Below, one piece after another: positions 3,715-54,835 of a stretch of DNA of 64,000 nt. The translations under genes and the position numbers were made by a program. The stretch's first letter is position 1, and the number at the start of each line of letters is the position of its first letter. A model generated the notes under the pieces. That model searched no databases. It had not been told where the DNA came from and worked only from the letters and a program-made list of their open reading frames with translations. Source of the DNA: Actinomycetospora termitidis (GTDB lineage Bacteria; Actinomycetota; Actinomycetes; Mycobacteriales; Pseudonocardiaceae); contig NZ_JASVWF010000004.1 in the NCBI RefSeq assembly GCF_030286555.1, positions 372,001 through 436,000 on the forward strand, in the 5' to 3' direction.

Positions 3715-5835
3715 ATGGTCGGCGCGATCGGGCGGGAGCGCAGTGACGACGTCGCGCGTCGCGTCGTGATCGCGCTCTCGGTCCTGGGGTCGATCTGCGC
3801 CCTCGTCGTCGTCGTGCTGATCGTGATCCCGGGTGGAGCGTCCTTCGAGGACACCGACGGCGTGTGGCAGGTGGCGTACCTGGCGTTCCTCGTCGCCGGG
3901 TCGGTCATCGGCGTCCACCGGCCGCGGCACCGGGTCGGGTGGGCGTTCCTGGCGCTCGGCCTCGGCACCCTCGTCCCGAGCGCGATCGTCGCGATCCGGC
4001 TCGGGCTCGTGGGGCGGACGGTGTCCTGGTCGAGCGGGGTGGCGGCCGCTCTGGAGACCGCGGCGGTCTCCGGCCTGCTCACGACGGTGCTGCTGATCTT
4101 CCCGACCGGGCACCTCCTGTCCCGGCGATGGCGGTGGGCCGTCCGGCTCGCGGCGGTGACCGCCCTGCTGGGTGCGTCGGCGGGCTTCGTGACCGGCCGG
4201 TTCGGCGGGCACGACACCGGCGTGCCGCCCGGGAACCTCGCACCGCTCGACGGTGACCTGCGCGGCCTCGGCGACGTGCTGGAGGCCGTCTTCTCGCCGC
4301 TGATGATCGTCTGCTTCCTCCTCGGCTGTCTCTCGCAGGTCCTGCGCTACCGCTGCGCCGGCGCCGACGAACGGCATCAGCTCCGCTGGCTCGCCGCGGC
4401 CGCGGCCGCCCTGCTCGGCACGCTCGTCGTCGGGATCGTCGTCACGGGGTCCCCGGTCGCCGAGGGCGTGTTCGCCTTCGTGACGGCCGGGGTGTTCGTC
4501 CTGATCCCGCTCGGCGCCTGTGTCGCGGTGCTGCGCTACCGGCTCTACGACATCGACGTCGTGCTCTCGAAGGCCGTGGTGTTCGGTGGCCTCGCCGCGC
4601 TCGTGACCGCGCTCTACGTCGTCGTCGTGGGTGGCGTCGGCGCCGTCGTCGGCCGGTCCGGGACGACCCTGCCGCTCTCGATCGCGGTGACGGTGATCGT
4701 CGCGCTCGCGGTGGAGCCCCTGCGGGCCCGGCTGGAGCGGCTCGCGGACCACGTGGTCCACGGACGGCGGGCCGATCCGGCCGACGTCCTCACCGAGCTC
4801 AACGCCGGTCTGGCGGCCACCGCGGACGATCGCGGCCCGGCCCGTCTGGCCCGGTTGCTCGCGGACGGCACGGGCGCGGTGGCGGTGGTGCTGTGGATCC
4901 GGGTCGGCGCGGAGTTCCGTCCCTGGGCGCACGGCTCGACCGACGAGGACGACACCCCGGCGGCGGTCGCCGACCCCGACGAGATCGAGGCCGACCTCGT
5001 CGTCCGCGTCCCCGAGGGCGACGAGCCGCTCGGCGCCCTGTCGCTCGTGAAGGCACGCGGCGAGTCGGTGAGCGCCGCCGACCGGCGGCTGGTCCGCGGC
5101 GCCGCCGCGGGTGCGGCGCTCCTGCTCGGACACCGCCGCCTGCAGATCGAGCTGCAGGAGCGGGCCCGGGAGCTGGCGGCCTCCCGCGTCCGGCTCGTCG
5201 CCGCCCAGGACGCGGAGCGACGCAGCCGCGAGCGCGACCTCCACGACGGCGCCCAGCAGCGCATCGTCGTCCTGCGGCTCCTCCTGGGCATCGGTGCTGA
5301 CGCCGCGCGCGCCGAGTCCGTTCCCGACCTCGCCGCGGACCTCGACGCGGTCTCCGCGGACGTCCAGCACGTCCTGGAGGCGGTGCGGACGATCGCCCGC
5401 GGCCTCCACCCGCCCCTGCTCGCGACCGAGGGGCTGCTCGCGGCCCTGCGCAGCGCCGCGCGTCTGGCCCCCGTGCCGATCGCCCTGGACGTGGCGGTGG
5501 CCGGACGGTTCCCGACCGACGTCGAGACGACGGTCTACCTGGGGGTCCTCGGCTCGGTGGCCCACCTGTCGGGCACGGCGCGGGACCGGCTCGACGTCGT
5601 CGTCCGCACCGACGACGACGGGCTGGTCTTCCGCGTCAGCGGCGCGACCGACGCGCCGGGCGACGGGGACCGGGAGGACACGGCGGACCTCGCCCTCGTC
5701 CGGGACCGGCTGGACGTCCTCGAGGGCGACCTGTGCGTGGAGACCCGCGGCGCCGTCACGACCCTGACCGGCCGGGTGCCCACGCACCGGACCGACGCGA
5801 CGAGGGCCGCCGCACTGGCGGGTGCCGCGTCGTGA
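3715..5835 (+). CDS. Membrane sensor kinase subunit A: phosphoacceptor His present, ATPase degenerate
   Basis: 706 residues. The first 340 residues hold about eight to ten membrane helices, then a GAF-like region (about 365-475), a coiled linker, and a HisKA_3 dimerisation domain with RERDLHDGAQQR, His510 being the phosphoacceptor. The expected HATPase region follows, but its N box reads VLGSVAHLSG with no Asn, the G1 box reads VSGATDAPGD instead of DDGxG, and the G2 region reads TADLALVRDR without the GTGL pattern. It therefore looks unable to bind ATP on its own. The stop overlaps the start of the next gene by four bases (GTGA), whose product has the opposite defects. ATG at 3715 is the first start before the membrane helices. 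Inference: one half of a split histidine kinase. Confidence 0.88.
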   Translation: MVGAIGRERSDDVARRVVIALSVLGSICALVVVVLIVIPGGASFEDTDGVWQVAYLAFLVAGSVIGVHRPRHRVGWAFLALGLGTLVPSAIVAIRLGLVGRTVSWSSGVAAALETAAVSGLLTTVLLIFPTGHLLSRRWRWAVRLAAVTALLGASAGFVTGRFGGHDTGVPPGNLAPLDGDLRGLGDVLEAVFSPLMIVCFLLGCLSQVLRYRCAGADERHQLRWLAAAAAALLGTLVVGIVVTGSPVAEGVFAFVTAGVFVLIPLGACVAVLRYRLYDIDVVLSKAVVFGGLAALVTALYVVVVGGVGAVVGRSGTTLPLSIAVTVIVALAVEPLRARLERLADHVVHGRRADPADVLTELNAGLAATADDRGPARLARLLADGTGAVAVVLWIRVGAEFRPWAHGSTDEDDTPAAVADPDEIEADLVVRVPEGDEPLGALSLVKARGESVSAADRRLVRGAAAGAALLLGHRRLQIELQERARELAASRVRLVAAQDAERRSRERDLHDGAQQRIVVLRLLLGIGADAARAESVPDLAADLDAVSADVQHVLEAVRTIARGLHPPLLATEGLLAALRSAARLAPVPIALDVAVAGRFPTDVETTVYLGVLGSVAHLSGTARDRLDVVVRTDDDGLVFRVSGATDAPGDGDREDTADLALVRDRLDVLEGDLCVETRGAVTTLTGRVPTHRTDATRAAALAGAAS

Positions 5836-7124
5836 GGTCGCTGGTGGCGACCCGGGCGCTGGCCGGGGCGATCCTCGCGGTGGTCGTGATCGGGGTGTAC
5901 GTCGCCGCCCTCGCGATCGCCGCGCTGGTCGGTGGCGAGGCGGCGACGCGGCTCCCGGTGCTCGTCGCGGGCACCGTCGGGGTGGCACTGATCGTGCCGC
6001 GGCTCCGGGGGTGGGCCGGCCGGCTGGCCGCGGAGGTCGTCCTCGGCCGCCGCGCGGCCCCGCACGAGGTGCTGGGCGCGCTCCCGCCCGCTCCCGGTGC
6101 GGCGCTCCCCCTCGACCGCGTCGCCGAGCGGCTCGCCGCGGGCACCGGCGCCGCCGGCGTCACGGTGTGGGCCGGGGACGGGGACACGCTGCGCCCCGTG
6201 GCGTGCTGGCCCGTGCCCCCGGCGACCGTCGCCGGCGAGCCGGCGGAGGGCGTCTCCCGTCGGGTGCCGGTCGTCCACGACGGCGAGGTCCTCGGTGCCC
6301 TGTCGATCACGAAGAGCCGGGCCCGCGGCATCGGTCCCGCGGATGAACGCCTGCTGCGGGCGGTCGCGGGCGGGCTCGGGCTCGCACTGCGCACGAACCT
6401 GCTCACCGCCGACCTCGCCCGGCAGGTCCGTGCGCTCGAGGCCTCCCGCCGTCGGCTCGCGGAGAGCGGTGACCAGGTGCGGCGCCTGCTCGGCCGCGAC
6501 GTGCGGGTCCGCGCTGCGGAGCCCCTGACGGCGGTGCGGGAGCGGCTCGACGACCTCGGCCGGCGGGCCGCCCTGCGCGGCGCCCCTCGGACGGCGGCGC
6601 TCGTCGCCCGGACCGCCGCGGACACCGCGACGGCGCTCGCGGCGCTCGGGGACTTCGCGCGCGGGGTCCACCCGCCGGTGCTCGACGCGGACGGGCTGGC
6701 TCCGGCCCTCCGGGACGCGGCCGCCGTCGCGCCGGTGCCGGTCGTGATCCACGGCCCGGCGCCGGGACGCCGCGATCCGGCGCAGGAGAGCGCGTTGTAC
6801 TTCGGGGTCCTCGAGGCCCTCCAGAACGTCACGAAGCACGCCGGGGCCGCGCGCGTCGACGTCCGGCTGCTCGAGCGGGCGGACGCCCTCGAGGTCGTGG
6901 TCGCCGACGACGGGCGCGGCCTCGCCCCCGGCGCCCACCACCGCGGGACCGGGTTGGCCGGCATCGAGGACCGGCTCGCCGCGGTCGGTGGCGGCCTCCG
7001 CGTGGAGTCGGGCCCGGGCGGGGGCACCGTCCTGACGATGCGGGTGCCGTCACCCGCCGCGTGCCCTCAACCGCCGGCGCCGGACGACTCGGCCAGGAAG
7101 AGCAGCGCGGCCCGGACCCGGTGA
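5832..7124 (+). CDS. Membrane sensor kinase subunit B: ATPase intact, phosphoacceptor His replaced by Arg
   Basis: 430 residues, GTG start overlapping the stop of subunit A. Two N-terminal membrane helices (residues 1-60) are followed by a GAF-like region that parallels subunit A. In the HisKA_3 position the sequence aligns without gaps to subunit A: RDVRVRAAEPL against RDLHDGAQQRI, so the acceptor His is Arg225. The catalytic domain is complete: N box EALQNVTKHAG (Asn332), G1 box ADDGRG (Asp359-Asp360) and G2 GTGLAGIEDRL. The protein should bind ATP but cannot autophosphorylate at the usual site. Expected to pair with subunit A and phosphorylate its His510. The 3' end overlaps the converging response-regulator gene by 58 bases. 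Confidence 0.88.
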   Translation: MRSLVATRALAGAILAVVVIGVYVAALAIAALVGGEAATRLPVLVAGTVGVALIVPRLRGWAGRLAAEVVLGRRAAPHEVLGALPPAPGAALPLDRVAERLAAGTGAAGVTVWAGDGDTLRPVACWPVPPATVAGEPAEGVSRRVPVVHDGEVLGALSITKSRARGIGPADERLLRAVAGGLGLALRTNLLTADLARQVRALEASRRRLAESGDQVRRLLGRDVRVRAAEPLTAVRERLDDLGRRAALRGAPRTAALVARTAADTATALAALGDFARGVHPPVLDADGLAPALRDAAAVAPVPVVIHGPAPGRRDPAQESALYFGVLEALQNVTKHAGAARVDVRLLERADALEVVVADDGRGLAPGAHHRGTGLAGIEDRLAAVGGGLRVESGPGGGTVLTMRVPSPAACPQPPAPDDSARKSSAARTR

Positions 7125-7744
7125 TGGCTACCGGGGTCCGCGGCCAGGCCCAGCTTCGCGAAGATCGCGTTGATGTGCTTCTCCACCGCGCGCACCGTGA
7201 GGACCAGCGCCTCCGCGATCGCGGCGTTGTTGCGGCCCTGCGCGATCCCGGCCAGCACCGCGAGCTCGCGCTCGGTCAGGCGCGAGAGCGGCCCGTCCCC
7301 GCCCCGCCGGCGGGCCGCCACCAGTTCCTCGACGACCCGCGGGTCGACCACCGACCCGCCGGCCGCGACCTCGCGCATCGCCGCGACGACCTGCTCCACG
7401 TCGGACACCCGTTCCTTGAGCAGGTAGGCGCGGCGTCGGGATCCGTCCTCGAACAACTGCGAGGCGTAGTCCGGCTCGACGTACTGGCTCAGCACGACGA
7501 CCCCGAGGTCCGGGTGGGACGACCGGAACCGTCGCGCGGCCCGGAGGCCCTCGTCCGTGCCGGTGGGCGGCATCCGGATGTCGGTCAGGACGACGTCCGG
7601 CGGGTCCGCCGCGACCGCGTCGAGCAGCGTCGGCAGGTCCTCGCAGACCGCGACCAGCTCGAGTTCCGGGCGCGCCTGCACCAGGAGCGTGAGGCCCTCG
7701 CGCAGGAGAACGCCGTCCTCGGCGATCACCACCCGCAGCGGCAT
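7067..7744 (-). CDS. NarL/LuxR-family response regulator
   Basis: 225 residues from the ATG at 7744. The receiver domain keeps the acidic pair (AEDG), the phosphoacceptor Asp in LTDIRMPP, the Ser/Thr switch (VVLSQY) and Lys (LLKERV). The C-terminal LuxR-type helix-turn-helix is clear: LTERELAVLAGIAQGRNNAAIA, then VEKHINAIFAKLGL. It faces the two-subunit sensor kinase and overlaps its 3' end, so it is the likely output of that system, though on the opposite strand. A longer form from 7768 is possible. DNA targets are unknown. Confidence 0.93.
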   Translation of the reverse strand: MPLRVVIAEDGVLLREGLTLLVQARPELELVAVCEDLPTLLDAVAADPPDVVLTDIRMPPTGTDEGLRAARRFRSSHPDLGVVVLSQYVEPDYASQLFEDGSRRRAYLLKERVSDVEQVVAAMREVAAGGSVVDPRVVEELVAARRRGGDGPLSRLTERELAVLAGIAQGRNNAAIAEALVLTVRAVEKHINAIFAKLGLAADPGSHHRVRAALLFLAESSGAGG

Positions 7745-7787: not shown

Positions 7788-7837
7788 GAGCGAAGGGCCC
7801 CCTCGGTCGGATAGACGGGCCGTGGGCGCCCTTCGCC
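7788..7837. repeat. Degenerate first copy of hairpin repeat
   Basis: Shares the left arm GAGCGAAGGGC and the loop ATAGA with the perfect hairpin at 7853-7903, 65 bases apart. Its inner stem differs on both arms (CCC with GGG, CGG with CCG) yet still pairs, so structure seems retained while sequence drifted. Outer arms are at 7790-7798 and 7828-7836. Confidence 0.6.
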
Positions 7838-7852
7838 AACCCGGCCCCCGCG

Positions 7853-7903
7853 GAGCGAAGGGCACCTTCGGTCGAATAGATCGACCGAAGGTGCCCTTCG
7901 CTC
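7853..7903. terminator. Perfect 23-bp hairpin, likely terminator
   Basis: Arms 7853-7875 and 7881-7903 are exact inverted complements with loop ATAGA. It sits 12 bases after the stop of the minus-strand membrane protein gene (7916-8413), a good place for a rho-independent-like stop; there is no U-tract, which is usual in high-GC actinomycetes. The length and perfection, and the near copy next to it, also fit a dispersed intergenic repeat family. Confidence 0.65.
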
Positions 7904-7915
7904 AACAACGGGTGG

Positions 7916-8413
7916 TCAGCGCACCCGCTCCAGCGTCATCGCCGGCGCACCGGGGAGCGACCGCGCCCGCGACATCGTCACCAGACCCTGGGCACCGAGG
8001 CTCACCCCGACGAACAGCAGGATGCTCGCGGCGTTGACCGTGGCCGCCGACGGTGCGACGAGCCGGGCCAGGAGATCCAGCCCGACGTGGGCCGCGATCC
8101 CGACGATCCACAGCGCCGCGGTGCCCCAGTGGCCCTGGGTGAACACCGTCCCGTCGGCGACCCAGAGCTTCATCGTCCGCGCCCGCAGCAGACCCAGCAG
8201 GCCGCCGACGACGAGTCCGGTGACCAGCAGCGTCCAGCCGAGGGTCGACACGGGGGCGTCCGCCGCCGCCGACGCGACCTGCACGAGCCCGATCACGCCC
8301 AGGACCGCCGCCACCCGCACCCGGCGCGGGGTGAACTCACGCACCCGCAGCTGGTTGTAGACCACCCAGACCAGCACCGCGATCCCGAGCACCGCCGACA
8401 ACGTCCCGTTCAT
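7916..8413 (-). CDS. CcdC/DUF1453-like membrane protein
   Basis: 165 residues from ATG 8413, preceded by GGGAGG. Four to five membrane helices (for example SAVLGIAVLVWVVYNQLRVR at the N terminus and LGWTLLVTGLVVGGLLGLL in the middle), with a conserved-looking WVADGTVFTQG loop between helices. The N-terminal helix followed by an Arg-rich loop and the four-helix layout resemble the CcdC/DUF1453 group, a family without a settled function. It is divergent from the sensor kinase at 8540, with 126 bases between them, so both may answer to the regulator encoded at 9751. Two hairpins follow its stop codon. Confidence 0.7.
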   Translation of the reverse strand: MNGTLSAVLGIAVLVWVVYNQLRVREFTPRRVRVAAVLGVIGLVQVASAAADAPVSTLGWTLLVTGLVVGGLLGLLRARTMKLWVADGTVFTQGHWGTAALWIVGIAAHVGLDLLARLVAPSAATVNAASILLFVGVSLGAQGLVTMSRARSLPGAPAMTLERVR

Positions 8414-8479
8414 GATCCGTCCCTCCCGTTGGTGTGCTCCGTACGGTCGTCCGCCGGCGGTCCCGGCACGTCGACCCAC

Positions 8480-8499
8480 GGGTGGAGACGGGGTGGAGA
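8480..8499. promoter_or_regulatory. 11-bp-spaced direct repeat before sensor kinase
   Basis: GGGTGGAGA occurs at 8480-8488 and 8491-8499, one helical turn apart, in the promoter region shared by the CcdC-like gene and the kinase at 8540. The spacing is what tandem regulator sites show; the binding protein is unknown. Confidence 0.3.
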
Positions 8500-8539
8500 A
8501 CGGGTGTGTCCGGCGGGGAACGGGTCCAGACTCGGCCCC

Positions 8540-9754
8540 GTGACCGCCACGACCACCGGGCACCGGGAACCCCCGCCCCGCCCCGCGTTCCAGACGGCGG
8601 GGGTGCCGCGCTCCGAGGCGGGCTCCCGCCTGGCGGGGCTCGGGCAGGCCCTGCGACCGCTGCTGTGGCTCTCCGTCATCGCCGGCACCGTCTGGCCGCT
8701 GACCCCCGGCGCGATCGCGGGCGGGGCCGTCGTCCTGGTCGGGGCGCTCTGCGCCGTGGCCGCCGCGCGCGACCCGCGGATCGCCACCGAGCAGGCGCCG
8801 GGCGACGCGTGGCGCACGCTGCTGCTCGTCCTGTGCGCGCTGTCGGGGCTCGTCGCCACCTCGCTGAGCCCGGCCGGGGCGGGCTACGCCACGGTGTTCA
8901 TCGCGGCCGGGCTCGCCGGACGGGTCGTCCTCGACGGGCGCCTGGTCTGGACCCTCGCCGTCGTGGCCGCGGTGGCCCTGTCGGCGGTGTTCGCGCTCTC
9001 TGTCGGCTCGCCGTGGGGGCTGCTGCTCGGCCTGTCGATCCCGGTCCTGGCGTCGCAGTCGCTGAACCGGGCCCGCCTGCACCGCGAGCACGCCCGGGTC
9101 GTCGCCCTGCTCGCGGAGCGGGACGCGCTGCGCGAGGCGGAGATCGCCGGCGCGGCCGCGCAGGAGCGGGCCCGGATCGCCCGCGACCTGCACGACGTCC
9201 TCGCCCACAGCCTGTCCGGGCTCTCGCTGCACCTGCAGGCGATCCGGGCCGTCCTCGCGAAGCGGCTCGGTCCCGACGACGCCGTCGTCGCCTCCGTCGA
9301 CACCGCCGCGGACCTCGCCCGGTCCGGGCTCGCCGAGGCCAAGGAGGCCGTCGCCGCCCTCCGGTCGACGCCCGCCCCGACGACCCCCGACCTGCAGGCG
9401 CTCGTCGACCGCCACGACGCCGGGCTGACCGTCGACGGCGATCTCGACGGGACCGCCCCGGAGGTCCGCGAAGCCGTGTTCGCCGCCGTCCGCGAGGCGC
9501 TCACCAACGCCGGCCGCCACGCCCCGGGCGCCCGGACCGGCGTCACCGTCACCGCGGGCCCGGACACCGTGGAGGCGACGGTGACCAACACGGCCCCGAT
9601 CGGGACACCCGCCGTCGGGGTCGGGGGCGGGAACGGCCTGGTCGGGCTCCGGGAGCGTGCGGCCCTGGTGGGCGGCACCGTCGAGGCCGGCCCGCACGAC
9701 GACGGGTGGCGGGTGGTGCTGCGCGTCCCGGTGTCCGGCAGGCTGATGGCGTGA
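8540..9754 (+). CDS. DesK/LiaS-type sensor histidine kinase
   Basis: 404 residues from a GTG start. After a 40-residue cytoplasmic tail there are about five membrane helices (residues 40-175) with almost no extracellular loops, as in intramembrane-sensing kinases. The HisKA_3 domain has RARIARDLHDVLAHSLSGL with the acceptor His, and the ATPase domain has N box REALTNAGRHAPGA and a glycine-rich GGGNGLVGLRERAALVGG lid. The G1 box reads TNTAPIG, a variant that this subfamily often shows. The stop overlaps the response-regulator start (GTGA), so they are a cognate pair. The membrane-protein gene at 7916-8413 is divergent and may be a target. Confidence 0.93.
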   Translation: MTATTTGHREPPPRPAFQTAGVPRSEAGSRLAGLGQALRPLLWLSVIAGTVWPLTPGAIAGGAVVLVGALCAVAAARDPRIATEQAPGDAWRTLLLVLCALSGLVATSLSPAGAGYATVFIAAGLAGRVVLDGRLVWTLAVVAAVALSAVFALSVGSPWGLLLGLSIPVLASQSLNRARLHREHARVVALLAERDALREAEIAGAAAQERARIARDLHDVLAHSLSGLSLHLQAIRAVLAKRLGPDDAVVASVDTAADLARSGLAEAKEAVAALRSTPAPTTPDLQALVDRHDAGLTVDGDLDGTAPEVREAVFAAVREALTNAGRHAPGARTGVTVTAGPDTVEATVTNTAPIGTPAVGVGGGNGLVGLRERAALVGGTVEAGPHDDGWRVVLRVPVSGRLMA

Positions 9755-10443
9755 CGACGTCGGTGATCGGGATCGTGCTCGCCGACGACCAGGCCGTCGT
9801 CCGCGACGGGCTGTCGATGCTGCTGGGCGCCGCGGACGACCTGACCGTGGTCGCAACGGCGCCGGACGGCCTCGCGGCGGTCGAGACGATCGTCCGCGAG
9901 CACCCCGACGTCGCCCTGGTGGACCTGCGGATGCCCGGCCTGGACGGCGCGCAGGTCACCGCCGAGGTGCGGCGGCGGGCGCCCGAGGTCCGCGTCCTGA
10001 TCCTCACCACCTACGCCGACGACGACGCCGTCCTGCCCGCCCTCCGCGCGGGCGCCGCCGGCTACCTCACCAAGGACACCACCGGCGAGGCGCTGTGCTC
10101 GGCGATCCGGACGGTGGCCGCGGGCGGCTCGGTGCTCGACGCCGCCGTCCAGCAGCGGCTCGTGTCGCTGGCCGGAGACGCAGCGCAGCGGAGCTCGACC
10201 ATCGAGGCCGGCTCACCGGCCGCGGCGCCGCCGGAGCCGGAGATCCCCGAGGGCCTCACCGCCCGGGAGGTGGACACCCTGCGACTGGTGGCCCAGGGGC
10301 TGTCCAACCAGCAGGTCGCGACGAAGCTGGTCGTCAGCGAGGCCACCGTGAAGACGCACGTGAACCACCTGATCTCCAAGCTCGCGGTCGACGGCCGGCC
10401 GGCGCTGGTCGCGTGGGCCTGGCGTCACGGCGTGGTGAGCTGA
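9751..10443 (+). CDS. NarL-family response regulator (cognate of 8540 kinase)
   Basis: 230 residues. Receiver: ADDQ acidic pair, Asp in ALVDLRMPG, Thr in LTTYADDD and Lys in YLTKDT. A 35-residue linker is followed by the LuxR-type DNA-binding domain (LTAREVDTLRLVAQGLSNQQ, then VKTHVNHLISKL). GTG start at 9751 overlaps the kinase stop by four bases. It is the output of the 8540 kinase. Its last 19 bases overlap the converging hydrolase gene. Confidence 0.95.
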   Translation: MTTSVIGIVLADDQAVVRDGLSMLLGAADDLTVVATAPDGLAAVETIVREHPDVALVDLRMPGLDGAQVTAEVRRRAPEVRVLILTTYADDDAVLPALRAGAAGYLTKDTTGEALCSAIRTVAAGGSVLDAAVQQRLVSLAGDAAQRSSTIEAGSPAAAPPEPEIPEGLTAREVDTLRLVAQGLSNQQVATKLVVSEATVKTHVNHLISKLAVDGRPALVAWAWRHGVVS

Positions 10444-51672: not shown

Positions 51673-52977
51673 TTGACCGCCGACACGAGCGTCGACGTCA
51701 CCCCTCCCCCACGTCCCCGGCGGCGGCGCCGCGCCGGACTCGTCCTCGCCGCCGTCGTCACCGGACTCGTCGGACTCGCCGCGCCGGCCGAGGCCGGCAT
51801 CCCCGAGATCCCGGAGCGCGGCTCGACCGCCCCCGGACACCCGCCCGTCTCGTCGTGCACCTCGGAGTTCGTCGAGGAGTACCGGTACCCGACCGAGGGC
51901 TACCGGGTCCGCGCCGCCTGCAGTTCCCTCGCTCCGTGGACCGAGGCGCGCGGCATCTCGACGTTCCCGATCGACGGTCACGCCGCGACCGAGTGGTTCT
52001 GGCGCGTGGACACCGACCAGTGGTCGGAGTGGAAGCCCCAGATGCGCCTGCCCGTCGGCTCGCTGCACCCCCGCGACACCAAGGTGGAGTACCGGTCGAC
52101 CGGCCCGGGTCTGACGCTCTACAAGGGCGACACCCCGGCGAACGGCGACGAGGCCCGCACCGTCACCGTCGCGATGCCCTCCGACGCGTCGGGCACCGCG
52201 GAGATCTACTGGGAGCGGTCCTGGGCCGACCACGTGAAGCTCGGCGAGGCGCCCGTCGTGGACGGCCGCGCCACCGTCCGCATCCCGCCCGGCGCGATCG
52301 AGGCCGGGTCCAACCAGGCCATCCTCGCCACGTACTCCGGCGACGCGACGTACCCCGCGATGCGGACGTCCTCGGGCGGCATCTCGGTGCCGAAGCCGAC
52401 GGCGCGGCCCACCGTGACCACGCCCTTCACCCACGTCACCCCGGGCACGGACGCCGAGCTCACGGTGACGCTGCCCTACGCCGAAGGACCCGTCGACGTG
52501 TTGGAGGGCGACCGCGTCGTGGGCACCGTCGAGCTGCACGCCGGCCGCGGGTGGCTGGCGGTCCCGCTGTCGGAGGGCGAGCACCAACTCCGCGTCGTCC
52601 ACCGCGGCGACGCCCGCTACCTCCCCGGCGAGTCGGCCGCCACGCCGGTGACGGTGTTCGCCCAGACCATCGAGCTCGAGTCGACGACGCTGCAGCCCGG
52701 CGACGAGCTCCGCGCGACGGCCACCCTGCCGTCGGCAGCCTCCGGGCGCGTGCAGTTCCTCATGACCTGGCCGGGGAACGTGGCCGGGATCGGGTCGGCG
52801 GACGTCGTCGACGGCCGGGCCACGTTCACGATCCCCGTCGACCGCATCGGGACCGGGACCTTCGGCCTCGCCGCCGACCACCGGGGCGGGAACGGGTTCA
52901 TGCCGTCCCGCACCGAGCCGGCGTTGTTCACCGTGGCCGCCACGGACGCCGCCCCCTCGCCGGAGGAGGCGCCGTAG
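51673..52977 (+). CDS. Secreted protein with Ig-like repeats
   Basis: 434 residues from a TTG start that has GAGAGGAG ten bases upstream. The signal peptide is RRRRRAGLVLAAVVTGLVGL with AAPAEA as the cleavage site. The mature protein has a Cys-containing N-terminal region, then three or four repeated beta-sandwich modules; similar blocks include VVDGRATVRIP and VVDGRATFTIP, and YSGDATYPA against HRGDARYLPG. These fit Big_3-like Ig domains used for envelope display. No C-terminal anchor, so secreted or wall-associated. Role unknown. Confidence 0.85.
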   Translation: MTADTSVDVTPPPRPRRRRRAGLVLAAVVTGLVGLAAPAEAGIPEIPERGSTAPGHPPVSSCTSEFVEEYRYPTEGYRVRAACSSLAPWTEARGISTFPIDGHAATEWFWRVDTDQWSEWKPQMRLPVGSLHPRDTKVEYRSTGPGLTLYKGDTPANGDEARTVTVAMPSDASGTAEIYWERSWADHVKLGEAPVVDGRATVRIPPGAIEAGSNQAILATYSGDATYPAMRTSSGGISVPKPTARPTVTTPFTHVTPGTDAELTVTLPYAEGPVDVLEGDRVVGTVELHAGRGWLAVPLSEGEHQLRVVHRGDARYLPGESAATPVTVFAQTIELESTTLQPGDELRATATLPSAASGRVQFLMTWPGNVAGIGSADVVDGRATFTIPVDRIGTGTFGLAADHRGGNGFMPSRTEPALFTVAATDAAPSPEEAP

Positions 52978-53038
52978 GCGAGGAGGTGCGCGACTCCCGG
53001 CGCTCGACCCGGATGCGCCGTCGTGCCACGGTTCCCCC

Positions 53039-54835
53039 GTGATCGACGGGAGGACGCGCACCGGCGCACACCGCACGCTGCGCCTCGCGCTCCTCGCCCT
53101 GCTCGGCGCGGCCGTGCTCGTCGTCGCGATCGAGATGGTCCTGCTGGTCGGGAGCCCCGAGGCGCCCTACGGGCTGCTCGTGCTGCTCCCGCTCACGGGG
53201 CTGATCTACGTCGCGGTCGGCGCGGTGGCGTGGGAGCGGCGACCCAGCAACCGCATCGGGGCCCTGCTCGTCGCCGGCGGCCTCGCCTGGCTCGTCGCGG
53301 GCCTCGTGAACACGCTCGTGCCGGCGTTGATCGCCGCCGGGCAGATCGTCGCGTGGGTCCCGGTCGCGGTCGTGGTGCACGCGCTCCTCGCGTTCCCGTC
53401 CGGACGCCTCGCCGGCCGCTCTCCGACCTCCGGCGCGGCGGCTCCGCCCCGTCTCGTGGCACACGGCCCCCGGATCCTGGTCGCGCTGGCCTACGTCGTC
53501 GCCGTGGTGCCGCAACCCGTGCGGTACGCGGCGACGCCGGCGCGGCCTCCCTACGACCCGTTGTTCGTCGCGAACCGGCCGGACGTCGCGGCGGCCGCGT
53601 CGGTGGTGCAGTCGGTCGCCGCGGCCCTCCTCGTGGCGGTCGTGGCCGTCGTGCTGGTGCGCCGCCTGGTGGCCGCCGACCGGGCCCGCCGCCACGCGCT
53701 GGCCCCCGTGTACGCCTACGGGGCCGCCGCGATCCTCGGTGTGGCCGTGCTCAGTGCCCTGACCCGCTACGCCGGGGTCGACCCGATCGTCGTGCCGCTC
53801 GTCCAGCTGCTCGTGCAGGCCGGCGTGCCGGTGGCGTTCACGGCGGCGATGCTCGGCGGCGGGTTCGCGCGGACCGGGGAGCTCGAGGAGCTCGCCGCGT
53901 GGCTCGCCCGCCCGGGCCGCGGGGGCGACCTGCGCGGGGCCCTGGCCCGTGCCCTCGGCGACCCCTCGCTGGCTCTCGCCTTCCGGGTCGAGCACCCCGA
54001 GGGGCCGACCGGGGAGTGGGTCGACGAGTCGGGCACGGCGGTCGCGCTCCCCACCCCCGGCGCCGACCGGGTCGCGATGCCGGTCGTGCTCGCGGACCGC
54101 GAGGTCGCCGTCGTGATCCACGACCGCGCGCTGCTGCCCGACCCCGGGCCCGTCCGGGCCGCCGGGCGCATCGTGGCGCTCGCGGCCGACCGGGAGCGGC
54201 TCACCGCCGAGCTGCTCGCCAGCCGTGACGAGCTGCGCGCCTCCCGCGCCCGCCTGCTGAGCTCCGGCGACAGCGAACGCCGTCGGCTCGCGCGGGACCT
54301 GCACGACCGGCTGCAGAGCCGCCTCGTGCTGCTCGCGATCACCGCCTCCGACGCCGCGATCGCCGAGGAGGGGTCGCTCGCGGCGGTGCGTCGGGGCATC
54401 GAGGACGCCGTCACCGAGCTGCGGGAGCTGGTCCAGGGGGTGATGCCGGCCCTGCTGCTCGAGCGCGGTCTCGTCGCCGCGGTGGAGGACCTCGCCCGTC
54501 GCAGCCCGCTGCCGGTGCTCCTCGTGACCGGGCCGGGCGTGGACCAGGATCTGCCGCCGGCGGTGGAGAGCACCGTCTACCACCTCGTCGTCGAGGCGGT
54601 CACGAACGCGGTGAAGCACGCACGGGCCACCAAGGTCGACGTGGACCTCGCCCGCGTGGGCGGCCGGCTGCGGGTGACGGTCGCCGACGACGGGATCGGT
54701 GGTGCCGCGGTCGGCCGGGGCGCCGGGCTGCGGGGCATCGCCGACCGCGCCGGCGCGCTGGGCGGGACGGTCGTGCTCGACAGCCCGGACGGGCGAGGCA
54801 CGCGGCTGGTGCTGGAGGCGCCCTCCGGGTGGTGA
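53039..54835 (+). CDS. Orphan sensor histidine kinase
   Basis: 598 residues. About seven membrane helices (residues 15-270), a linker with a GAF-like part, then HisKA_3 with RRRLARDLHDRLQSRLVLL (acceptor His) and a full ATPase domain: VVEAVTNAVKHARA, VADDGIGGAAVGRGAGLRG and an intact lid. In contrast to the pair at 3715-7124, all motifs lie in one chain. No response regulator is adjacent. Start is GTG 53039. A strong hairpin follows the stop. Confidence 0.92.
   Translation: MIDGRTRTGAHRTLRLALLALLGAAVLVVAIEMVLLVGSPEAPYGLLVLLPLTGLIYVAVGAVAWERRPSNRIGALLVAGGLAWLVAGLVNTLVPALIAAGQIVAWVPVAVVVHALLAFPSGRLAGRSPTSGAAAPPRLVAHGPRILVALAYVVAVVPQPVRYAATPARPPYDPLFVANRPDVAAAASVVQSVAAALLVAVVAVVLVRRLVAADRARRHALAPVYAYGAAAILGVAVLSALTRYAGVDPIVVPLVQLLVQAGVPVAFTAAMLGGGFARTGELEELAAWLARPGRGGDLRGALARALGDPSLALAFRVEHPEGPTGEWVDESGTAVALPTPGADRVAMPVVLADREVAVVIHDRALLPDPGPVRAAGRIVALAADRERLTAELLASRDELRASRARLLSSGDSERRRLARDLHDRLQSRLVLLAITASDAAIAEEGSLAAVRRGIEDAVTELRELVQGVMPALLLERGLVAAVEDLARRSPLPVLLVTGPGVDQDLPPAVESTVYHLVVEAVTNAVKHARATKVDVDLARVGGRLRVTVADDGIGGAAVGRGAGLRGIADRAGALGGTVVLDSPDGRGTRLVLEAPSGW

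Follow-up and report, generated by a model that had tools for sequence, protein, structure and literature searches.

Split kinases, in which the phospho-accepting histidine and the ATPase lie on separate proteins, are an accepted, if rare, kind of histidine kinase. Nearest in working to the system reported here is FasB/FasC/FasA of group A Streptococcus, in which two membrane sensor-kinase-like proteins act with one regulator: FasC supplies the histidine (H246) and can dispense with its own kinase domain, FasB supplies the kinase domain, and the two form a heterodimer in two-hybrid assays (PMC12675982). CheA3 and CheA4 of Rhodobacter sphaeroides do not autophosphorylate alone, and one of them provides the ATPase and the other the histidine together with the phosphatase (PMC3591291). 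Here we describe a variant of this kind from Actinomycetospora termitidis, found in a stretch of 64,000 nucleotides (the window; assembly GCF_030286555.1, contig NZ_JASVWF010000004.1, positions 372,001 to 436,000 of the forward strand), where two overlapping genes encode a pair of HisKA_3-class membrane sensor kinases, subunits A and B, with reciprocal losses of catalytic residues, and a NarL-type response regulator is encoded head-on to them. On balance we favour the view that A and B form a heteromer in which B phosphorylates His510 of A in trans and A passes the phosphate to the regulator.

The protein sequences of A and B were searched against Pfam and their motifs were aligned with those of the HisKA_3 and HATPase families (Table 1). 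Subunit A matched HisKA_3 at residues 501-568 (32.2 bits, Pfam cut-off 24) and, up to an E value of 10, gave no match to any HATPase family, while B matched HATPase_c at residues 319-407 (42.7 bits, cut-off 26.4) and gave no HisKA_3 match up to the same E value, though it aligns through the family core. Both analyses confirmed the complementary loss that a first-pass annotation of this DNA had described, and His510 of A and the aligned Arg225 of B are where it had placed them. The loss in B goes beyond the histidine to the other two residues of the acceptor box, one of them the glutamine of the DxxxQ motif, the meaning of which has been discussed elsewhere (PMC8199190, PMC6798134). This putative phosphatase motif is present on the acceptor chain, as Asp511-x-x-x-Gln515 of A. 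Neither chain carries the acceptor together with the ATP boxes, as judged by Pfam, motifs and domain scores, and with histidine and ATPase on separate proteins, in a tandem that has no complete kinase, the locus would by its sequence be a split kinase. The part that each chain has kept is in normal order and the part that it has lost is what its partner kept, and this is the strongest point in favour of a joint enzyme.

Profiles of the dimerization and histidine phosphotransfer (DHp) domain and of the catalytic and ATP-binding (CA) domain were built separately from 146 complete kinases (His, Asp, N-box and G1 patterns intact) among 185 non-identical family rows. Thirty-nine rows stayed outside the profiles: A, B and a cut version of B, further degenerate chains, one fragment at a contig edge, and six ordinary kinases from the A. 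termitidis genome, set aside with a G1 box outside the filter. The DHp domain of A scored 96.2 bits, at the 18th percentile of the 146, and its CA domain 33.5 bits, which is under all 146 complete kinases (lowest 74.1) and also below the six set-aside kinases (57.9-81.1). For B the CA domain scored 112.2 bits, at the 25th percentile, and the DHp domain 56.3 bits, at the 3rd percentile (lowest 48.7) and above the six set-aside kinases (38.9-55.1). Because these six ordinary kinases score lower, the loss in B is carried by its missing His, Asp and Gln rather than by its DHp score.

The regulator was assigned to the NarL type from its Pfam matches to Response_reg (48.5 bits) and GerE (41.5 bits), and its gene overlaps the 3' end of B by 58 nt with its own 3' end. 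Judged by its residues the receiver is intact, the roles of these residues being general knowledge of receiver domains. The principal competing explanation, which we regard as unlikely, is that this is a dying locus, a kinase tandem that decayed piecemeal, in which complementarity is the coincidence of two independent decays. Such an origin would fit the finding of the pair in one genome only, the frequency of degenerate partners in this kinase family and the heavily altered CA domain of A, but the frames are open with steady coding composition, the kept halves score like those of complete kinases, the three ATP boxes of B and the three acceptor residues of A are intact with the opposite half gone in each, and the receiver residues of the regulator have been kept. 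Third-position GC was 0.93-0.99 in all 11 full 100-codon blocks of A and B, the lost CA domain of A included; at high G+C, long open frames alone are little evidence.

Subunits A and B are paralogues, with residues 5-408 of B aligning to residues 283-690 of A at 39% identity over 400 amino acids. The NCBIfam model MctS also aligns through both cores (A 485-694, 38.3 bits; B 202-410, 67 bits), and with both chains far under its cut-off of 700 these matches speak for homology only. The earlier picture of domains shared out between the chains had to be abandoned, in that each chain aligns along the entire kinase core and has lost different catalytic residues, and both keep DHp and CA domains by alignment and in models, so that there is no whole-domain partition of the CheA3/CheA4 kind. 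Since neither chain is a truncated half and the two are paralogues, the split is one of reciprocal decay. A single gene cut in two was ruled out by the paralogy over 400 amino acids, and a frameshift or sequencing artefact by family profiles, with which only the chain's own frame rose above noise in the CA stretch of A and the DHp stretch of B.

Models of the kinase cores (A 463-706, mean predicted local distance difference test score 81.3; B 178-430, mean 79.6) each consisted of a DHp hairpin followed by a mixed helix and strand CA domain, and the best Foldseek match of each was a DesK entry. The two models are not independent, because the same six alignment rows, with A and B among them, were the input for both. 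Whole-chain template modelling (TM) scores to DesK were low (0.4-0.5) because the placing of the CA domain on the DHp domain differs, and the CA-only DesK entry 3ehg fits B well (target TM 0.78). When solved structures were searched by sequence, DesK was the best match for B and A had no match at an E value of 0.01; nor did A match PHROGs at 0.001.

We propose that a single HisKA_3 sensor kinase gave rise to A and B, two copies that have diverged and decayed reciprocally. The intact CA domain of B would bind ATP and phosphorylate His510 of A in trans, most likely inside a mixed DHp bundle, and A would then pass the phosphate to Asp55 of the regulator; because the Asp-x-x-x-Gln motif is kept, A would probably also dephosphorylate the regulator when B is not engaged. 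The two chains would thus probably signal only together, and the obligate heteromer that had been put forward as the simplest reading of the locus remains the simplest, with heteromerisation itself a prediction from the two sequences. The pair may go back to two complete kinases in tandem, and versions of that tandem in which a single chain is damaged would survive elsewhere. The trans geometry is possible, since in DesK, also of the HisKA_3 class, the CA domain of one protomer touches the DHp helix of the other (PMC5231405). It is conceivable, though very improbable, that homodimers of A and of B meet only transiently and that B uses A as a substrate without a stable DHp heterodimer. Both chains keep the DHp hairpin in the models, and this is the mode of the biochemically characterised CheA3/CheA4 (PMC3591291). 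Against it, descent by duplication from a homodimer would make mixed DHp bundles the default, and FasB and FasC gave two-hybrid signals as a heterodimer and not as homodimers (PMC12675982).

The locus most similar to that of the window lies in another genus of the same family (genome G307, locus L137, 2717-9675) and consists of two kinases with a head-on regulator, which matches the window regulator with 265.5 bits. Its kinase junction is ATGA, with a 4-nt overlap as in the window. The first kinase (g1) is His-less (EADLAGGARAH) with all ATP boxes present and the second (g2) is complete, which makes this locus a candidate half-way stage. G307 lies outside the match list of a 268-genome draw from the family, in which 14 genomes, that of A. 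termitidis included, had a match at an E value of 1e-60 or better. G307 apart, the regulators of related loci scored 193-251 bits to the window regulator. A similar regulator stands beside two complete kinases at five loci (G746, G841, G763, G832 and G899; 227-251 bits), beside a complete and a dead kinase at two (G305 and G755), and, in the sequence taken from G245, G021 and G714, beside a single complete kinase. G054, for which the kinases alone were compared, likewise has a complete and a dead one. The genus of G763 was represented by 12 genomes, and in 11 of them a regulator scored at least 242 bits. Four of these 11 have a two-kinase tandem (G746, G841, G763 and G832), four have a single kinase in the sequence taken (G922, G850, G868 and G823) and three are cut by a contig end (G778, G813 and G906).

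For a census of tandems we took same-strand family members 600-3500 nt apart, called complete where the His and the N-box pattern were present, and counted the window, which was met through two overlapping loci, once. The ten tandem loci comprised five with two complete kinases, one with a His-less and a complete kinase, three with a complete and a dead kinase, and the window. A complete kinase is kept in all nine of the others; the window alone is without one and alone is complementary. In all five loci with two complete kinases the G2 box is an SHGF variant. The census is not a random sample, because a locus entered it through resemblance to A, B or the regulator, and only a few candidates were scored in each genome. 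Conservation in relatives, one of the checks suggested in the first-pass annotation, was not seen for the exact pair in the genomes searched; tandem kinases beside such regulators do recur. The same annotation held that relatives keeping only one of the two genes would refute the pair; single kinases do occur (G245, G021 and G714), but they are complete and therefore inform on the ancestor rather than speak against the pair.

The census leaves out loci with a His-only protein, a dead kinase and a complete kinase. The recurring arrangement comprises a short HisKA_3 protein with the histidine but without ATPase boxes, a regulator of the NarL type, a kinase-like protein devoid of both the histidine and the boxes, and a complete kinase. 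All four parts were present in 10 of the 11 loci taken, with only the dead and the complete kinase in L121, and the short protein kept its histidine in all 10. Loci L111-L118 came from eight of 18 genomes of the genus, the copy in the A. termitidis genome (L111, G000:C11:784000-794500) lying outside the window, and L119 and L120 each from a further genus of the family. The short protein presumably resembles a Spo0B-type phosphotransferase.

A comparable role could be imagined for A, which would then be a Spo0B/ChpT-like phosphotransferase fed by another kinase or regulator, with B as a pseudokinase that regulates another, complete kinase of the cell. By sequence A has the make-up of Spo0B and ChpT, a DHp domain with the histidine and a degenerate CA domain. 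Both proteins have been listed among the bearers of DHp domains (PMC5231405). The A. termitidis genome (6.56 Mb in 30 contigs) has 25 HisKA_3 matches at an E value of 0.001 or better, and the genus has repeated cases of a short His-only protein beside a regulator, a dead kinase and a complete kinase. B is coupled to A, though, and its CA domain scores normally and has all three boxes, which a regulatory pseudokinase would not need, so that we consider this explanation quite improbable.

In the best tree of the shared region B grouped with the His-less kinase of G307 (82/69) and A with the complete one (71/82). Gene order would instead pair A with the His-less kinase and B with the complete one.

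Several results weigh against an obligate heteromer of A and B. Exact complementarity was seen in one genome only, and the nine other tandem loci all lack it. Among 17 further genomes of the genus, of which three are less than 85% complete, none had a close orthologue of A, the best match scoring 103 bits against 1467 for A itself, and at the cut-offs applied the exact pair was not seen in the genus (18 genomes, that of A. termitidis included), the family (390), an order draw (397) or a class draw (394); misses are possible in the last three, because only the top candidates per genome were scored there (two with P0001 and four with P0002). A scan of genome contigs with B gave six loci, the best at 36% identity. 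A close orthologue would be needed to measure selection on the halves that were kept, and this reliance on a single genome is the weakest point of the case. The DHp score of B is low, yet not under that of distant working-type kinases. Both forks of the best tree have weak support, and the approximately unbiased (AU) test rejected none of five alternative groupings of A, B, g1 and g2 (p-AU 0.178 for A with B, 0.154 for A with g1, 0.099 for B with g2, 0.175 for g1 with g2 and 0.109 for all four). Compared by parts, the membrane and GAF region of A is nearest to the His-less g1 and its DHp domain to G021 and the complete g2. Our claim is therefore limited to the recurrence of tandem kinases beside this kind of regulator and of damaged partners and does not extend to the order of the losses. 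Finally, sequence does not tell cis from trans phosphorylation; a general loop rule for telling them may fail for NarQ and NarX (PMC8199190), so that the trans step proposed for A and B is a tentative one.

It is tempting to speculate, and we offer this tentatively as somewhat short of an even chance, that a duplicated homodimeric kinase with a shared regulator is driven stepwise from two complete kinases, through a complete kinase with a His-less or dead partner, to reciprocal loss and thus to an obligate heteromer, in which two membrane sensors with different inputs make one AND-gate kinase. The present loci would then be snapshots of duplication, degeneration and complementation within one active site, and the recurring loci that join a His-only protein to a dead and a complete kinase would be another result of this tendency. 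If the heteromer exists as proposed, it would be a natural kinase with acceptor and ATPase on two membrane sensors, whose output needs both chains, and the graded relatives would allow the passage from a homodimer to an obligate heteromer to be tested within a single protein family. Modelling of CheA3/CheA4 indicates that a split and bifunctional kinase can give ultrasensitive or bistable output (PMC3591291), and because A keeps the phosphatase motif, A and B are a candidate split bifunctional kinase outside chemotaxis.

The layout of the locus is given in Table 1. The coupling of the two genes described in the first-pass annotation stands, the GTG start of B sitting inside the stop of A. That annotation had also given both chains membrane and GAF-like parts. 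Hydropathy alone points to about nine hydrophobic segments in A and two in B, whose N-terminus is shorter; the GAF label is weak, B falling marginally below the Pfam cut-offs and A giving no match, and its basis is a homologous kinase of G307 that does pass PF01590.

Table 1. Features of the split-kinase locus, numbered from the first letter of the window.
Feature	Position	Strand	Details
Subunit A	3715..5835	+	706 aa; membrane segments (within 1-340), GAF-like region, DHp with phospho-acceptor, degenerate CA
A His510 phospho-acceptor, box ERDLHDGAQQR	5242..5244	+	Asp511 and Gln515 (DxxxQ phosphatase motif) retained
A N-box remnant LGVLGSVAHLS---G	5539..5574	+	Glu and Asn gone, 3-residue deletion
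A G1-box remnant FRVSGATDAPG	5629..5661	+	DxG gone
A G2-box remnant EDTADLALV	5674..5700	+	GxGL gone
GTGA junction	5832..5835	+	B GTG start overlapping A stop codon, 4 nt
Subunit B	5832..7124	+	430 aa; 2 hydrophobic segments, GAF-like region, DHp without acceptor, intact CA
B Arg225 at His site, box GRDVRVRAAEP	6504..6506	+	Val226 replaces Asp, Glu230 replaces Gln
B N box EALQNVTKHAG	6813..6845	+	intact
B G1 box ADDGRG	6903..6920	+	intact
B G2 box GTGLAG	6945..6962	+	intact
NarL/LuxR-type response regulator	7067..7744	-	225 aa, head-on; receiver Glu9/Asp10, Asp55, Ser86, Lys110

Beyond the regulator gene, the window contains two palindromic units of 49 nt (7788-7836 and 7853-7901), 65 nt apart, one of which has perfect 23-nt arms and an RNA fold z of -10. 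The 21-base arm pattern occurs at 73 places in the genome with up to two mismatches, compared with none for a reversed control; the palindromes are a dispersed element resembling repetitive extragenic palindromic (REP) sequences. A second, ordinary-looking complete HisKA_3 kinase of an unrelated class, with a NarL-type regulator of its own, directly adjoins the locus (7880-10443, plus strand). Another frame with the kinase core of the family lies at 52766-54832 (plus strand); its acceptor box, ARDLHDRLQSR, is also found at G000:C1:1471000-1477500 (L126).

Reciprocal loss fixed in sequence in the HisKA_3/NarL class was not found in searches limited to open-licence papers. In Mycobacterium tuberculosis the two kinase proteins Rv0600c and Rv0601c reportedly cooperate with one regulator, TcrA; they are said to be of another histidine kinase class, with domains divided between them, unlike the reciprocally decayed paralogues A and B. 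That system is mentioned in passing in PMC9274095. Hik36/Hik43 of Synechocystis has been termed a split kinase (PMC7656254), and 1556 of 42417 HisKA-domain proteins were without a HATPase match, some of which could be split kinases (PMC3591291). AbrC1/AbrC2/AbrC3 of Streptomyces coelicolor is similar in having two actinobacterial kinases near one regulator, but single deletions differ in their effect on antibiotic production and the gaps between the genes are long enough for promoters of their own; the word heterodimer does not occur in the text of that report (PMC4428217). In Corynebacterium glutamicum a ChrS pseudokinase without a working CA domain acts through the paralogous kinase HrrS, and the two form heterodimers in two-hybrid assays, as we propose for A and B. 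It differs in being a laboratory-evolved mutant in which the ChrS histidine is uninvolved and the phosphate comes from the non-cognate HrrS, and in having a truncated form that showed no binding in the two-hybrid assay (PMC9491836). CheA3 and CheA4 are chemotaxis kinases of a cytoplasmic cluster that have lost whole domains, P1 being absent from CheA4 and P3 and P4 from CheA3 (PMC3591291). Membrane sensors on both chains, which had seemed new, have a precedent in FasB/FasC. Even there FasA is a ComE-like regulator of another class and the putative DHp domain of FasB still has histidines, and the dispensability of the FasC kinase domain was demonstrated by truncation (PMC12675982), whereas in A and B the losses are fixed in the sequence of a HisKA_3/NarL-class pair.

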